Below, in pieces: positions 4,862-19,103 of a stretch of DNA of 64,000 nucleotides. The translations under genes and the position numbers were made by a program. Within the stretch, counting starts at the first letter, position 1. Each line of letters begins with the position of its first letter. Source of the stretch: an uncultured Bacteroidota bacterium (GTDB lineage: Bacteria > Bacteroidota > Bacteroidia > B-17B0 > Aurantibacillaceae); assembly GCA_937873155.1 (NCBI GenBank), contig CALMVZ010000004.1, positions 1-64,000 of the forward strand. Reading direction: 5' to 3'. The notes under the pieces were generated by a model. The model was not told the origin of the DNA. It saw only the letters and a list, made by a program, of their open reading frames with translations, and searched no databases.

Positions 4862-6211
4862 ATGAGAACAATAAAATTACTAACCCTTGTTGCTTTTGTG
4901 TACGGTGCTGTTACTGCGAAAGCACAAAGCACAAATCAGTCAGCCGATTTTTCGTTGCAAGCGGCTATTGATTACGCTATCAAACATAACGCAACATATT
5001 TAAATGCGGAATTAGATGTGAAGATCGCCAGGTATAATAATAAAGAGTTCTTAGCGATCGGATTTCCACAGATCGGAGCCAGCGTTGATTTCAAAGATTA
5101 TTTCGAGATCCCGACTTCATTATTACCGGGACAATTTTTCGGAGCGCCTCCGGGAACCTTCATTCCTGTAAAATTCGGAACGCAATACCAGACCATGGCC
5201 GGTGTTTCTGTTTCGCAATTGGTTTTTAGCAGCGATTATTTTGTTGGTGTTAAAGCCGCCAAGGAATTAAGGATATTATCAGAAAAATCTTTAGCGCGTA
5301 CTAAAACAGAAACTATCGTTACGATCACCAAAGCTTATTATATGGCTTTGATAAATAAAGAACGGATAAAAACGCTGGATGCAAATATTGTACGGATCAA
5401 AAAATTATTTGATGATACAAAGGCACTGAACCAAAGCGGATTTGTTGAGAAGATCGATGTTGACCGTTTAGAGTTAACGTATAATAACCTGGTAATTGAA
5501 AAAGAAAAGATCGCAAGATTGGTTGGCATTGCTGAAACATTATTAAAATTCCAGATGGGTTATGATCTTAAACAACCGATCAACTTAACGGATGAGATCA
5601 AAGCAGAGCAATTACAGGATATTGATCTTTTAGCTGAATCAAAAACAAATTATGAAGCACGTCACGAATATCAATTACTTCAGTCACAATTGAAATTGAA
5701 CAACATTGAATTGAAGCGTTACAAATACCAATACTTACCGTCTTTAGTAGCTTACGCTTCTTATAACCAACAGGCACAACGTACCGAATTCGATATTTTC
5801 GATACAGATAAAAAATGGTATCCGATCGGGATCTTCGGTGCAACTTTAAATTTCCCGATCTTCACGGGCGGACAAAGATATTACAAGATCAAAAAGGCAA
5901 AGGTGAATGTCATGAAGACCGAAAATTCCATTACACAGGCAAGATCTTTCATTGATATGGAGATCACTTCGAGTTCCATTGCTTATAAGAATGCTTATGC
6001 TTCGATGCAGGTGCAAAAGAAGAATAAAGATCTTGCAATGAACATTTTCGAAACTTCAAAAAAGAAGTATGAAGCAGGTGTCGGTTCTAATTTAGAATTA
6101 GTAACTGCAGAAACGGCATTAAAAGAATCAGAAACGAATTACTTAAATGCAGTTTATGAGTTGATCATTGCAAAAACTGATCTCGATAAAGCAACAGGAA
6201 TCATTAAATAA
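4862..6211 (+). CDS. TolC family outer-membrane efflux protein
   Basis: 449 residues with a signal peptide (MRTIKLLTLVAFVYGAVTAKAQ). The sequence shows the TolC pattern of two repeated long-helix halves: 'SLQAAIDYAIKHNATYLNAELDVKIARY' near the N-terminus, and later 'FPIFTGGQRYYKIKKAKVNVMKTE', the typical strand-then-helix element. It should form the trimeric outer-membrane duct for the adaptor and RND pump downstream. It is the second gene of the TetR-controlled operon (7 nt after tetR, 21 nt before the adaptor gene). Confidence 0.92.
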   Translation: MRTIKLLTLVAFVYGAVTAKAQSTNQSADFSLQAAIDYAIKHNATYLNAELDVKIARYNNKEFLAIGFPQIGASVDFKDYFEIPTSLLPGQFFGAPPGTFIPVKFGTQYQTMAGVSVSQLVFSSDYFVGVKAAKELRILSEKSLARTKTETIVTITKAYYMALINKERIKTLDANIVRIKKLFDDTKALNQSGFVEKIDVDRLELTYNNLVIEKEKIARLVGIAETLLKFQMGYDLKQPINLTDEIKAEQLQDIDLLAESKTNYEARHEYQLLQSQLKLNNIELKRYKYQYLPSLVAYASYNQQAQRTEFDIFDTDKKWYPIGIFGATLNFPIFTGGQRYYKIKKAKVNVMKTENSITQARSFIDMEITSSSIAYKNAYASMQVQKKNKDLAMNIFETSKKKYEAGVGSNLELVTAETALKESETNYLNAVYELIIAKTDLDKATGIIK

Positions 6212-10976: not shown

Positions 10977-12674
10977 ATGCATAAGTCCCCTTTTAGTCTT
11001 CTTAAATTTCTGATCAGCGTTGGTTTTCTTCTGCTGGTATCTTGCAATCATGATGAAGAAAAAGTAGAGCAGAAGGTTGTTAAGGTAAGAGCTCCTCAGG
11101 ACGTAGACGCTTCAGTAAAAAAAGAGATAGAAAGTCTTTTATCAAAACGGATCAATTACACAACACTTTTATTGTTTGAAGATACGATCCGGACCTTAGA
11201 ATTTTTTAAACCTGTTGCTGAAAGGGAATCGCCTTATTTTACGCATAATGGAAAATTAAAACCATTAGCGGACACATTGATCTCTATTTTTAAGGATGCG
11301 AGGTTTTATGGTTTGATCCCTGATGACTATCATTACTCAAAAATAAAGGCCCTGCAGGAAAAATTCTTTAATATAAAAGATAGCTTGTTCGATGCCTTCG
11401 CTATTGCACAAAGTGAGATATTACTATTTGATGGACTTTACAAATTCGGTGCGCATTTAAATAAAGGGCGTTTTTATCCTGACAGTTTACTGTTGGAATG
11501 GAATCCAAAAAAACTGGATACGAATTGGGTCGATATCATTGGCTATGGTTTAGCAACAGGAAATATCCGTGCAGCATTTGATTCTTTGGAACCTGTGCAT
11601 GAAGGTTACAAATTTTTAAAATTGGAATTGAGAAAATACATTGCTGAAAACGAAAAAATACTTTGGGATTCTGTTTCGTTCATTAATGTAAAAGATACGC
11701 CTCTTGTTCTGAGCCAGGTGAAACGCCGTTTAATGATCACCGGCGAGTATGACAGTACTGTAAAAGGAAATGACAGCGTAAAACTTGCTAAAGCAATTAA
11801 AAGATTCCAGCCGAAATTTAACCTGGAGCCTGATGGAAAACTAGGGAAGTACACCAAACAGGCTTTAGGTTACGATAAAGAAAAAGTGATCCGCCAGATG
11901 GAAATGGCTTTAGAACGCTGGCGTTGGGAGCCGAGAGAATTTCCGAAAAGATATTTTTGGGTGAATATTCCAAGCGCTGATCTTCATGTTTGGGAATATG
12001 ATAAAAAAGAAAAGAAAGATACCTTGGTTTTATTTTCGAGAGTTGTTGTTGGAAAACCGGAAACACCTTCGCCTCATTCGGTAAAAAGTAAGATCAATTA
12101 CATGCTGGTGTATCCGTATTGGAATGTGCCGTACAGTATTGCGTGGAAAGAAATCCTCCCCGCTGTTAAGCGCGATACAAGCTATTTGAGAAGAAAAGGT
12201 TTTGAAGTTGTTGATTATCACGGAAAGGTTCTGGATATCTCTAAGTTGCATTGGAAACGTTACAACAAAGATTATTTACCGTTCAAATTCCGTCAGCGTA
12301 TTGGCGGCGATAATAGTTTAGGTATTTGTAAATTCAATTTCCATAATAAATATGGCATTTATATGCACGATACCAACAGTAAAAAATATTTTAAGACTTT
12401 CTATCGTTACCAAAGTCACGGTTGCATTCGTTTAGAAAAATTCGTTGAAGCTGCCAGGTTCCTGATACGTGATGATACATTAAAATTGCCTTACGATACG
12501 TTAATGAGTTATTTCGCCACACCGATCCAAAGGCAGATCAATATGAAAAAACCATTCCAGATGTACGTAAAGTATTATACTATGCGTGCGGATGATTCCA
12601 CAGGACTTCATATGTACATCGATATTTACCGTCGTGATGAGAAGATGATGAAGATGGTTTATAAGGGGAAATAG
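10977..12674 (+). CDS. YcbB-like L,D-transpeptidase lipoprotein
   Basis: A cell-wall cross-linking enzyme candidate of 565 residues. The signal peptide ends in a lipobox (LLLVSC, Cys23). A substrate/scaffold region follows (about 60-240), then a peptidoglycan-binding type 1 domain ('VKLAKAIKRFQPKFNLEPDGKLGKYTKQAL', about 262-292) and the YkuD catalytic domain (about 320-510). The catalytic motif is complete: an upstream His in MHDTN near 463 and SHGCIRL near 480 with the nucleophilic Cys. The order PG-binding then YkuD and the length match the YcbB/LdtD group. It is monocistronic, between the efflux terminator and the 21-bp array. Confidence 0.92.
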   Translation: MHKSPFSLLKFLISVGFLLLVSCNHDEEKVEQKVVKVRAPQDVDASVKKEIESLLSKRINYTTLLLFEDTIRTLEFFKPVAERESPYFTHNGKLKPLADTLISIFKDARFYGLIPDDYHYSKIKALQEKFFNIKDSLFDAFAIAQSEILLFDGLYKFGAHLNKGRFYPDSLLLEWNPKKLDTNWVDIIGYGLATGNIRAAFDSLEPVHEGYKFLKLELRKYIAENEKILWDSVSFINVKDTPLVLSQVKRRLMITGEYDSTVKGNDSVKLAKAIKRFQPKFNLEPDGKLGKYTKQALGYDKEKVIRQMEMALERWRWEPREFPKRYFWVNIPSADLHVWEYDKKEKKDTLVLFSRVVVGKPETPSPHSVKSKINYMLVYPYWNVPYSIAWKEILPAVKRDTSYLRRKGFEVVDYHGKVLDISKLHWKRYNKDYLPFKFRQRIGGDNSLGICKFNFHNKYGIYMHDTNSKKYFKTFYRYQSHGCIRLEKFVEAARFLIRDDTLKLPYDTLMSYFATPIQRQINMKKPFQMYVKYYTMRADDSTGLHMYIDIYRRDEKMMKMVYKGK

Positions 12675-12696: not shown

Positions 12697-12948
12697 GCTC
12701 CAGTAGCAGCGCCAGGCGCTCCGGCGCTTTTATTACCGGCTCCGGTATAAAAAGTAACGGCTCCTCCGGAACTGTTAATGGCTCACGAAACTCTTTTATA
12801 CGCTCCAATAAAATTAGTATCCGCTCCTGCAATTATCCCGGGTGCTCCTGAGGTCTAAGTATTCGCTTCTATAATAATAGCATCGGCTACCGCGTTTGTT
12901 TTATTAGCTTCAGCTGTATTTTTACAGGCTCCCATGTTCATTCTATTT
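12697..12948. repeat. 12-unit imperfect tandem array with an exact 21-bp period
   Basis: Every 21 bp from 12697 to 12928 the + strand reads GCT (12 of 12 units), and eight of these read GCTCC. Eight of the eleven junctions have TA five bases before it, giving a semi-conserved block TA-n3-GCTCC with about 11 variable bases between blocks. Neither strand is open in the repeat frame: the + frame (the same frame as the upstream L,D-transpeptidase) has one TGA, and the minus frame (Gly-Ala-x5 heptads) has TAG and TGA. This 411-nt intergenic space holds nothing else I can name. It may be a decayed heptad-repeat gene, or phased protein-binding sites, since 21 bp is two helical turns. Confidence 0.75.
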
Positions 12949-13085
12949 TTTATCACACTTAAACTATTTGAAATCTGTGTGCTTTTAGATAACCGGATAT
13001 AAAGCGTGAGAGCATATTAACGTTTTTTCACGGAGCGAATCCAGCTTTTGGCAAATCACTTACGTTATAGTACTAAAAAGAATCC

Positions 13086-13817
13086 ATGTCAAGCAGAAGT
13101 GAAATAGGGCATAACCAGAATGTGGCGAACTTTGAGGATCTGATAAGCCGGTGTTCGGGATTTGGCGCTAATTATAATCCGAATTTCAATGCTATTAAGT
13201 TAGGAAATTTGAATACACTCCGGGCCAATGCGTTAAATACTCTTTCGGCTACCTCCGCCGCAAAAATGGCTTACGAAAGCGCGGTGAACGATCGCGAAAT
13301 TGTTTTTAAACCACTGAAGAAACTAGCTACCCGTATTATGAATGCTTTAAAAGCTTCGGGGGTAAGCGAACTTGTAATAAAGGATGCCCGGTCGATCAAT
13401 TATAAAATTCAAGGCGTAAGGGTAAAAGCAATTTCTGAAAACGAAACCGAAGCAGAAAAAGCAAAGCATATTTCTGTTTCAAGACAAAGTTTTGACAGCA
13501 TGATGGAACATTATAGCAGACTTATTGATCTGCTAGGTTCAATTCCGGATTACCAGCCTAATGAAGCTGAGTTAAGTGTAACGGGTTTAAATACGCTACT
13601 CTCGAATATGAAAGCTTCGAATACTGCTGTAATTAACACTACTACAACTATGCTGAACGCGATCATTGAACGAAATCTTTTGCTTTACAATAAAGAAAAC
13701 GGGCTGGTACTTATAGCCAACGAAGTAAAGTTTTATGTGAAATCGGTTTTCGGGACAACGAGCCAGGAGTATAAAGAGGTTAGAACTATTAAATTTACAA
13801 GAAGAAAGATCAATTAA
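13086..13817 (+). CDS. hypothetical protein, Bacteroidota-specific family
   Basis: 243 residues, predicted helical and soluble; no signal peptide or membrane helix. Visible features are the N-terminal 'NFEDLISRCSGFGANYNP', a central 'PLKKLATRIMNALKASGVSE', and a C-terminal 'KFYVKSVFGTTSQEYKEV' segment. I recall similar unnamed proteins in Bacteroidota with the same C-terminal 'YVKSVFG..S..YK.V' ending, but no function. The gene follows the 21-bp array by 137 nt and is convergent with the haem-c lipoprotein gene. It is clearly coding: long, and free of stops in a region of ordinary composition. Confidence 0.7.
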   Translation: MSSRSEIGHNQNVANFEDLISRCSGFGANYNPNFNAIKLGNLNTLRANALNTLSATSAAKMAYESAVNDREIVFKPLKKLATRIMNALKASGVSELVIKDARSINYKIQGVRVKAISENETEAEKAKHISVSRQSFDSMMEHYSRLIDLLGSIPDYQPNEAELSVTGLNTLLSNMKASNTAVINTTTTMLNAIIERNLLLYNKENGLVLIANEVKFYVKSVFGTTSQEYKEVRTIKFTRRKIN

Positions 13818-15506: not shown

Positions 15507-18500
15507 TTATTCTTTAATGATCTTTACAACCTTGTTTTGCGAATTATTCCTGAGCTGTACAAAATAAACGCCATCATTTAGTTCACGAATATCGAGCAAA
15601 GTTTTTTCGCCGGTTATTTCCTGTTTTATAACTGTTTGTCCGATCAAATTGATCACAGAAACAGTTGTGTTGGTTGAAACGTTTTGGATCTCCAGTGTAA
15701 ACAAACCGTTATTAGGATTAGGGTACACTACGATCTCTGAACTCCAAACTCCCAACGGCTGCAAGCCTGTGCAAGCAGAAACGTTTTGTGTGAATGTGGT
15801 TGAGTCTGTACAGCCGGCAGCACTTGTACCTGTTACGGTATAGGTTGTTGATACCGTTGGGGAAACGGAAATGCTGGTACCCGGGCCTCCCGGGTTCCAC
15901 ACGTAATTAACAGCGCCATTAGCTGTAAGGGTGGCTGATTGCCCAACACAAATCAGGGTGTTGGATGTACTTGCGGTAACCGTTGGGTTAGGGCTAATAT
16001 TTAAACAAACCGTTGCAGTATTTTTGCAACCATTAGCATCTGTACCAGTCACTGTATAAGCACAACTGCAAGCTGTATTAAATGGAAAACATGGTGATTG
16101 CTGAGTAGAAATAAAAGCGCATGGGCCAGTCCAGGTATAAGTATTGGCGCCGGATGAGGATAAGCAACCTGTGTTACCATTACACGCCGCAGAGAATGAA
16201 TTTGCCGTTACAGTTGGTAATGGAAAGGCGGTTAAAGTATAGGATTGTGAAGTTGTACAATTGCTGGCATCAGTAACTGTAGCATTATACACTCCTGCTC
16301 CTAAACTTGCGGCGAGGGAGTTTGTACTAACTGACGGTGACCACGAGTAGGTATAACCCGGTGTGCCGCCGCTAACATTTAAAGTAATACTGCCGTTTGT
16401 TTGTCCGGCGCATCCTGCATTGGAAGTTGTTGCGCTTACAGATGGAGAATTGGGATTAGATAAACTTTGGGAAATATTAATTGAGCAATTATTTGCATCT
16501 TTTACTGTGCAGGTATAGGAGCCTGCACCAATACCGGTGGCTGTAGAAGTTGTGCCGCCTAAAGGAGACCATGAATAGGTTAAGCTGCCGGTTCCTCCAC
16601 TTGCAGAAATTGTGATTGCTCCGTTGGTTAATCCACAACCCGGAGACGCTGTTGATACAACAGAAGCTGTAATTGCAAGAGGTTGTGTTATTGTAAACGT
16701 TTTAATTATCGAGCAAGAATTAGCATCGGTAATTGTACATGTAAAGCTGCCATTTGAAAGACCGGTTGCAGTGGCTGCTGTACCACCGGCAGGAGACCAT
16801 GAATAGGTTAAGCTGCCTGTTCCGCCGGAAGCGCTAACACTTGCCATACCATTAGACGCACCGTTGCAGGTAATGTTTGTTTGAGATTGAGTTGCGGTAA
16901 TTGCAGTTGGCTGTGTAACATTTACAGAATTTACACTGGTACAACCATTCGCATCAGTAACGGTTACAGTTTTTACACCAGCATTTTGTCCGGTAATAAC
17001 AGAAGTAGTTGCGCTTGTTGACCAGGAGTATGTGTATCCTGCTGTACCACCGCTTGCGGTTACTGTAGCCGAACCATTGGAACCACCATTACATAAAATG
17101 TTTGTAACCGCAGTGGCTGAATTTACTGCAGATCCGGGCTGAGAAATATTTACCGATTTAACCGAAGTGCATCCGTTGGCATCGGTAACTGTTACAGTTT
17201 TTACACCGGAGGTTTGTCCGGTGATAACAGAAGTAGTTGCACTTGTTGACCATAAGTATGTGTATCCCGCTGTACCACCGCTTGCTGTTACAGTTGCAGA
17301 ACCAGTTGAATTGCCAAAGCATAAAACATTTGTTACGGCAGTTGAGGTAACGAGAGCTGAAGGCTGGTTGATGTTCACTGAATTTACATTGGTACAACCA
17401 TTGGCATCGGTAACTGTTACAGTTTTTACACCGGAGGTTTGCCCGGTGATAACAGAAGTAGTTGCGCTTGTTGACCAGGAGTATGTGTATCCTGCTGTAC
17501 CACCGCTTGCGGTTACAGTTGCAGAACCTGTACTGCCACCATTACATAAAATGTTTGTAACCGCAGTGGCTGAATTTACTGCAGATCCGGGTTGAGAAAT
17601 ATTTACAGATTTAACCGAAGTGCAACCGTTCGCGTCGGTGACAGTAACGGTCCGCACCCCTGCGTTTAAGCCGGTAATAACCGAAGTTGTTTGTGCGCTT
17701 GACCATAAGTATGTGTAACCCGGAGTACCGCCGCTTGCTGTTACAGTTGCAGAACCCGTTGAGCCACCAAAACACAAAACATTAGTAACCGCGGTTGAAG
17801 TATTAAGCGCTGAAGCGGGTTGTGATATAGTAATTGATTTAATACTTGTACATCCATTCGCATCTGTTACAGTTACTGTTCTTACTCCTGAGTTTAATCC
17901 GGTAATAACCGAAGTTGTTTGAGCTGTTGACCACAGGTAAGTATAACCCGGTGTTCCGCCTGAAGCTGTTACTGTAGCCGAGCCGGTTGATCCTCCAAAA
18001 CACGCAACATTTGTTACAGCCGTTGATGTATTAAGTGCTGAGGCGGGTTGAGTTATAGAAACTGTTCTTGACGCTGTTGAACCGCAACTGTTAGTAGTAA
18101 CACAAGTATATGTTCCTGCACTTAAACCGGAGGCGGTTGCTGCATTACCTCCGCTTGGACTCCATGTATAAGTAAACGGTCCGCCACCAGAGGCGCTTAC
18201 GGTTGCAGAGCCTGTACTTCCTCCAAAACACGCAACGTTAGTTTGACCTGATAAATTCAAAGTAGGAGTAGGGCAAGGCTGAGTTACACAAAATATAGGA
18301 TTAACACCCGGGAAATAAGTTCCTCCCGGATCAATATTATAAGTTGTTGTCTCGTTTGTTAACCAGTTTGCCTGGCTGCAAATAGCGCTTAGTACTGTGT
18401 TTTGTGTTCCGCACTTAATACCGGTGTAAACATTATTATCACCGTGATAGCCGCCTAAACTTGCATCATAATTAAGAGCAATTGCAGTTAAACCAAGAGT

Positions 18501-19103
18501 CAGACCCGGAGGAATATAAGAGTTACCATTGTTAGGAGCGCCTGAACCAGGTTGAAGAAATTGACCTGCAACTTGCGGCACAGCATTGTGTGTGGTGGCA
18601 AATGGATTTGTCCACCCGAATACCCAGTTTGATACTGTGGTAGCGTTTGGCCCCTGGAAAATAAACCAATTGTCACCTCCTGCCGGTGAAGGACAAGTTC
18701 CCGGAGCTGTATTAGTCCAGCCTGTAACTACAACTGTTCCCGGTAAACCACTTACAGATGGACCTGTTGCAACTGTTATGGTCATTTTAATTACAGTGTT
18801 AGCCGCTATACTACCTGTGGTAGTCCAGGCAATAGAGCCCTCGGCGGTGTTGGTTAAAGAAACGGCGGCAAAACCGCTTAAAGCAGAATCATATCCATAA
18901 TCGGTTATCCTTATAGTAGTGCCCGCGCTTATATTTACAAATGTTACCATGGTTAATTCGTAAGGGACAACATCATAATTAATTCCAATAATAGCCATGT
19001 CGCCGGGAGCCAAAGTCGTTTGGGCTTTTGATCCCTGGAAAATCAGAAATGCTAATAATGTAAAAAACAGATTTTTTAATTTTTTGCCTTGTCTCTTAAT
19101 CAT
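15507..19103 (-). CDS. SprB-repeat surface protein with T9SS type A sorting domain
   Basis: 1198 residues in four parts. (1) A signal peptide ending QGSKAQ. (2) An unrecognised N-terminal beta-rich domain, about 30-265, beginning 'LAPGDMAIIGINYD'. (3) About nine SprB-type repeats of roughly 75 residues (pattern 'CFGGSTGSATVTASGGTPGYTYLWS...TVTDANGCTS...QP'), then two diverged Cys-rich repeats. (4) A C-terminal T9SS type A domain ('VYPNPNNGLFTLEI...GVYFVQLRNNSQNKVVKIIKE'). It should be exported by the type IX system and fixed to, or released from, the surface; SprB repeats are known from gliding adhesins. A TATATTTG box on the minus strand (19154-19161) could be its -7 element. Confidence 0.9.
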   Translation of the reverse strand: MIKRQGKKLKNLFFTLLAFLIFQGSKAQTTLAPGDMAIIGINYDVVPYELTMVTFVNISAGTTIRITDYGYDSALSGFAAVSLTNTAEGSIAWTTTGSIAANTVIKMTITVATGPSVSGLPGTVVVTGWTNTAPGTCPSPAGGDNWFIFQGPNATTVSNWVFGWTNPFATTHNAVPQVAGQFLQPGSGAPNNGNSYIPPGLTLGLTAIALNYDASLGGYHGDNNVYTGIKCGTQNTVLSAICSQANWLTNETTTYNIDPGGTYFPGVNPIFCVTQPCPTPTLNLSGQTNVACFGGSTGSATVSASGGGPFTYTWSPSGGNAATASGLSAGTYTCVTTNSCGSTASRTVSITQPASALNTSTAVTNVACFGGSTGSATVTASGGTPGYTYLWSTAQTTSVITGLNSGVRTVTVTDANGCTSIKSITISQPASALNTSTAVTNVLCFGGSTGSATVTASGGTPGYTYLWSSAQTTSVITGLNAGVRTVTVTDANGCTSVKSVNISQPGSAVNSATAVTNILCNGGSTGSATVTASGGTAGYTYSWSTSATTSVITGQTSGVKTVTVTDANGCTNVNSVNINQPSALVTSTAVTNVLCFGNSTGSATVTASGGTAGYTYLWSTSATTSVITGQTSGVKTVTVTDANGCTSVKSVNISQPGSAVNSATAVTNILCNGGSNGSATVTASGGTAGYTYSWSTSATTSVITGQNAGVKTVTVTDANGCTSVNSVNVTQPTAITATQSQTNITCNGASNGMASVSASGGTGSLTYSWSPAGGTAATATGLSNGSFTCTITDANSCSIIKTFTITQPLAITASVVSTASPGCGLTNGAITISASGGTGSLTYSWSPLGGTTSTATGIGAGSYTCTVKDANNCSINISQSLSNPNSPSVSATTSNAGCAGQTNGSITLNVSGGTPGYTYSWSPSVSTNSLAASLGAGVYNATVTDASNCTTSQSYTLTAFPLPTVTANSFSAACNGNTGCLSSSGANTYTWTGPCAFISTQQSPCFPFNTACSCAYTVTGTDANGCKNTATVCLNISPNPTVTASTSNTLICVGQSATLTANGAVNYVWNPGGPGTSISVSPTVSTTYTVTGTSAAGCTDSTTFTQNVSACTGLQPLGVWSSEIVVYPNPNNGLFTLEIQNVSTNTTVSVINLIGQTVIKQEITGEKTLLDIRELNDGVYFVQLRNNSQNKVVKIIKE
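16908..18046 (-). repeat. five near-identical SprB repeat units in DNA (225-228 bp period)
   Basis: Repeats 2 to 6 of the SprB protein are so alike in DNA that the same phrases recur at fixed distances. For example 'accaggagta' at 17021 and 17474 is 453 bp apart, with the related unit at 17249 between them (228 and 225 bp). Third-position identity shows recent duplication or conversion, and the array should be prone to copy-number change and to assembly collapse. Confidence 0.8.

Follow-up and report, generated by a model that had tools for sequence, protein, structure and literature searches.

Genes of the protein family represented by ORF243, in the window analysed here (a 64,000-nucleotide stretch of contig CALMVZ010000004.1 from an uncultured Bacteroidota bacterium), are nearly always accompanied by a non-coding array of tandem units that repeat at exactly 21 bp, number about a dozen, differ in sequence from locus to locus, and are conserved in step with the 10.5-bp pitch of the DNA helix. 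The array and the protein diverge together, and the gene and the array duplicate and move together. We favor, with moderate confidence, the reading that the two are components of one cassette: the protein, which is basic and predicted to consist of two helical domains, would attach to the array beside its gene along a single face of the DNA and build a phased nucleoprotein row there.

The window array (positions 12697 to 12948, forward strand) consists of 12 phased units of 21 bp with an approximate consensus of TA-n3-GCTCC. The earlier note on this DNA, which was made from the sequence alone, reported a GCT trinucleotide in perfect 21-bp phase, and this is indeed present in all 12 units, at positions 12697 + 21i (i = 0 to 11), the last at 12928, without a single slip. 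Among 20 first-order Markov sequences, and likewise when other periods were applied to the window, the best phased trinucleotide reaches only 5 to 7 of 12, and the mean unit identity of the array is 0.49 at period 21, compared with 0.38 or less in the rest of the window. The complete block TA-n3-GCTCC described in that note holds as a consensus, not as an invariant sequence: exact GCTCC occurs in 8 of the 12 units, the other four carrying GCTCA, GCTTC, GCTAC and GCTTC, and TA-n3-GCT likewise occurs in 8 of 12. As that note also maintained, the array is non-coding, with stop codons in all six frames. It is absent from the output of Tandem Repeats Finder because its units are too diverged. The 228-bp and 453-bp tandem repeats that the program found in the window come from the internal repeats of a large protein (15507 to 19103) that carries SprB repeats and a type IX secretion tail.

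The array is intergenic, flanked on one side by the gene of a YkuD L,D-transpeptidase (10977 to 12674) and on the other by ORF243 (13086 to 13817, forward strand), upstream of which it lies. The 137-bp spacer between the array and the ORF243 start (12949 to 13085) probably contains the promoter and the ribosome-binding site. The same arrangement, with the array 5' of the gene, is found for a paralogue on another contig of the host genome (C3), and both of these 5' arrays have a CTCC core that is oriented alike relative to the gene. The YkuD gene is also present in six congeners, but in none of them is it followed by the array or by ORF243, and the pair is thus an accessory feature of this locus.

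The key partner of the window array, ORF243, lies outside the segment covered by the earlier note, which overlooked it. It encodes a basic protein of 243 amino acids, apparently a tandem duplication of a helical domain (residues ~1-116 and 128-243). The AlphaFold2 model, built with 65 aligned relatives, is all-alpha (pLDDT 91) and predicts two similar halves, each of about four helices, connected by a flexible linker. The median net charge of the family proteins is +8, and no signal peptide is apparent in the ORF243 sequence; the protein is presumably cytoplasmic. No significant match to the family was found in Pfam (searched with ORF243 and four relatives), NCBIfam (two members, at the cut-off), PHROGs, the PADLOC defense models (best E-value 0.027, in one of five family members) or the PDB sequences, nor was there any match in the phage and plasmid collections. 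Foldseek searches of the PDB likewise produced nothing significant (best E-value 0.18), and the best VIA-align score (Z 9.8 to a LemA protein, rmsd 3.2 over 122 residues) is in the range of generic helical bundles. The PDB and the viral fold libraries yielded only generic helical-bundle matches and no significant match to a known DNA-binding fold, which is not evidence that the fold is new. Homologues of ORF243 are present in 17 of the 60 genomes searched, counting the host genome, with a patchy distribution among relatives. A third homologue in the host (C10:568005-568566), truncated by the contig end, is followed on its 3' side by a weak period-21 array.

A scan of GTDB species genomes produced 253 relatives of ORF243, and the best 80 of these, in named genomes mostly of Bacteroidota, were analyzed. 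A period-21 array lies within 1.2 kb of the gene in 76 of the 80 loci, and 21 is the best-scoring period of the range 12 to 45 in 76 of the 80; in the background control, taken from these loci at a greater distance from the gene, comparable scores are reached in 1 of 74. The first 30 loci scanned agree with this picture: most contain an array of period 21, whose motif differs from one locus to the next. The gene is also combined with an array in further family copies, which come from ten genomes and from two contigs predicted to be viral. Among the few family genes near which no array was found are L072, L088 and L099. Under a stricter threshold, 74 of the 80 loci retain an array, which follows the gene in 73 cases and precedes it in one; the distance between gene and array has a median of 72 bp. 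The number of units varies little (median 11, interquartile range 10-12). Not one indel was detected at the 684 unit junctions of the strict arrays, a count to be read with the caveat that the profile extension penalizes shifts, of which up to 3 bp were allowed. The proposal, made for the window array, that selection acts against insertions and deletions and leaves the sequence free thus extends to the whole family, with locus-specific sequences in constant phase. Near-perfect arrays are seen at L121 (Kaistella gelatinilytica) and L104 (Flavobacterium aquatile).

Beneath this diversity, there is a faint common motif, approximately GCAwttAgAAwTcTagCatcc, in 97 circularly aligned array consensuses (score 2.45 compared with ~1.1 in column-shuffled controls); 82 of 90 3' arrays carry it on the sense strand of the gene. 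No cluster of neighboring genes is present in more than 12 of the 80 loci, and the cluster that reaches this number consists of large surface-type proteins. In three loci (L063, L090 and L094), restriction-modification-like genes are located upstream of the cassette, possibly a defense-island context.

Conservation within the unit follows the pitch of the helix. We computed, for each array, the Fourier transform of the information content over the 21 columns, a procedure that needs no alignment across loci. Power is highest at 10.5 bp, where the 74 strict arrays exceed column-permuted controls by z = 11.3, and the peak persists when arrays are thinned by protein identity, with z = 10.0, 10.4, 9.9 and 7.1 for 80, 59, 37 and 15 arrays, the smallest set comprising proteins less than 50% identical to each other. 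No other period approaches this power; base composition, measured as GC content, is not periodic at 10.5 bp (z = -3.9), and simulated neutral arrays give z = -1.2. For the window array by itself, the peak is not significant (p = 0.22). As the constrained positions recur once per helical turn, the simplest reading is that a protein reads one face of double-stranded DNA. The suggestion of the earlier note that the window contains an array of binding sites on the same face of the helix is thereby supported indirectly, by the exact 21-bp period at unrelated loci, the differing motifs and the conserved columns 10.5 bp apart, the sites themselves being putative. Units within an array also resemble their second neighbors more than their immediate ones (p = 2e-5), perhaps through duplication by pairs.

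In the mechanism that we propose, an array of roughly 10 to 13 exact 21-bp units would be bound as double-stranded DNA by the ORF243-family protein. Each unit would offer a pair of conserved patches separated by one turn of the helix and, with units following every two turns, all sites would lie on one face. About one protein molecule per 21 bp would produce a row or filament of about a dozen copies over ~250 bp, and the two similar halves of the protein might match the two patches of each unit, although this last step is a guess. Because the array sequence drifts together with its own protein, array and protein would be cognate to each other within each cassette. By analogy with the design of iteron and centromere-like arrays, the likeliest uses of such a structure would be self-maintenance of the cassette or the pairing, condensing, anchoring or local organization of the carrier DNA. 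More tentatively, and with less than even confidence, these might be a phylum-wide, hitherto undescribed class of mobile gene-array cassettes, with dispersed orphan arrays, whose protein, of a new helical family, polymerizes on one face of the DNA as a pitch-locked but sequence-flexible nucleoprotein organizer of the chromosome or a selfish centromere-like element.

Array distance correlates with protein distance (Mantel r = 0.54, p < 0.0005), a correlation also expected from mere linkage. The gene and the array duplicate and transfer as a cassette of ~1.3 kb: two pairs of duplicates within one genome (L102/L105 and L060/L061) have the gene and the array in common and nothing further on either side, with margins of ~75-90 bp upstream of the ATG and 145-220 bp beyond the array, and a 1467-bp copy is 98% identical between Flavobacterium croceum and Epilithonimonas tenax, members of different genera. 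F. croceum has 11 matches, the highest count obtained per genome. Near the cassette end in L060 and L061 (~5230-5260), there is a ACGTTAGC-like sequence that resembles an integron attC core and, judging from this resemblance, some copies may move as integron cassettes.

These observations also fit an account that agrees with ours on binding and differs on purpose, which we regard as unlikely but the most serious of the rivals: the cassette would be a selfish dispersing element, its array the site at which the element is recognized, paired or copied, and its protein an accessory factor. The tight bounds of the recent duplicates, the near-identical intergeneric copy, the multiplicity in some genomes and the presence in 17 of 60 genomes are all compatible with dispersal of this kind. 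However, the family protein matches no transposase or nuclease and has no counterpart in the phage and plasmid collections, no terminal inverted repeats were noticed by eye at the two boundary pairs inspected, and ordinary homologous or integron-type recombination could account for the movement.

Another account moves the action from DNA to RNA: the array would be transcribed, and the protein would bind the resulting repeated RNA, which would act as a scaffold or as small RNAs. The position of most arrays just 3' of the gene and the strand-specificity of the common motif are in line with this, and, of the 73 intervals that separate gene and array, an automatic terminator search assigned a hairpin to only 18, so that transcription could read through into the array. 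Yet, 10.5 bp is the pitch of B-DNA and is not expected for single-stranded RNA, and Rfam contains no match for the window array. A search for palindromic units or RNA hairpins revealed nothing locus-specific beyond shuffled sequences, 58 of 97 arrays scoring above their own shuffle mean. We consider this account improbable.

Arrays of the same period also occur apart from the gene. Within the 1.155 Mb of the host genome that were scanned for arrays (24%), there are seven period-21 arrays of 10-12 units, compared with four at all other periods from 12 to 42 taken together, counting those outside long open frames. Only two of the seven adjoin a family gene, and therefore arrays can exist without the gene. 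Of the remaining five, three (C10:201222-201452, C10:375743-375994 and C12:118241-118492) have no adjacent ORF243 homologue, and two others (C12:264359-264567 and C12:376702-376932), also orphans, share a unit in opposite orientations, of which a five-unit relative is found at C12:39412. Kaistella gelatinilytica, which has one family gene, contains a gene-linked array and an orphan array with a common unit, and this unit is confined to the two arrays, no isolated single sites in trans being detected with up to 3 mismatches. Taken as a set, seven orphan arrays show no 10.5-bp signature (p = 0.57), and among random sets of seven gene-linked arrays, a signal that low appears in 0.9% of the draws. 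The absence of the signature from arrays without the gene speaks for the reading that we favor. The orphan arrays may be relics or may serve other proteins. A second helical-looking protein encoded beside an orphan array in K. gelatinilytica has no relatives among 19 other genomes. In genome G060, a six-unit period-21 array (C2:42378-42503) lies 5' of the gene of a 236-amino acid orphan protein without Pfam matches that was not found in 19 other genomes. Two orphan arrays in distant genomes, one at locus L134 (3308-3580, on contig C2 of G060) and the other the host array at C12:118241-118492 (L049), are each within about 1 kb of sucD, which we take to encode the succinyl-CoA ligase alpha subunit; this proximity is possibly a coincidence.

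The orphan arrays, with period 21 and no 10.5-bp signal, and the turnover of tandem arrays by duplication, as in L102/L105, might be taken to indicate a neutral minisatellite that hitch-hikes with the gene. A minisatellite of this kind, however, would be expected to vary in period and length, whereas the arrays keep period 21 and a narrow range of lengths with highly diverged sequences, and the conservation of gene-linked arrays tracks the helix; we rate this explanation slightly below the RNA account and find it quite improbable. The weakest alternative, a decayed or cryptic coding sequence for heptad repeats (Gly-Ala-x5 on the minus strand), which the earlier note had entertained and which could draw on the equivalence of 21 bp and seven codons, on GCN on the minus strand in 12 of 12 window units and on an open frame in 41 of 60 arrays compared with 28.4 +/- 3.5 after column permutation (an excess that the shared ancestral motif can explain), is contradicted by the lack of a consistently open frame among 80 arrays, the best frame being open in 35 and all six frames closed in 25, and by the lack of a 3-bp period in conservation (z ~ -2.5 at 3.0 bp), and is rejected as very improbable.

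The favored reading, a protein bound along one face of its own array, has several parallels. Plasmid iterons are direct repeats of about two helical turns located beside the gene of the Rep initiator, and the cassettes resemble them in having two-turn direct repeats next to the gene of a putative binding protein. They differ in that the family has no Rep match in Pfam and none in the plasmid collection, and in that the cassettes are chromosomal, with ~11 units, usually 3' of the gene. In the parC/ParR, tubC/TubR and stbDR/StbA systems, a small DNA-binding protein acts on an array in cis with repeats of roughly one turn; the combination of a small protein with phased direct repeats in cis and the nucleoprotein row expected from it are similar here. 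In contrast to the ParR and TubR systems, there is no partition NTPase or other conserved neighbor in the 80 loci, and, in contrast to all three, the protein is all-helical with duplicated halves and matches no family. CRISPR also places a regular array beside a protein gene, but the units described here are contiguous and diverged, with no spacers and no cas genes. Within the phylum, the closest element on record is BrickBuilt, a minisatellite-MITE of Porphyromonas gingivalis with a 23-nt unit of one sequence, terminal inverted repeats and no protein (PMC4596501). Both are dispersed, intergenic, spacer-free tandem arrays in Bacteroidota, but the cassettes have locus-specific 21-bp units and a partner gene, occur in many genera, and duplicate as a segment that includes the gene.

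No description of the gene-array pair was found in the open-access literature and, as far as we can tell from the libraries and open-access papers searched, the cassette is new by its membership. Should binding be confirmed, its mode of action would follow an established design, that of a protein with a repeat array in cis. What it adds is a gene family without known relatives that is tied, across the phylum, to an array of free sequence and fixed pitch. The model predicts cognate binding, about one protein molecule per 21 bp and cooperativity that is lost upon half-turn insertions, and the roughly one hundred natural protein-array pairs might reveal a recognition code. Such cassettes would also account for intergenic tandem repeats that are too diverged for repeat finders.
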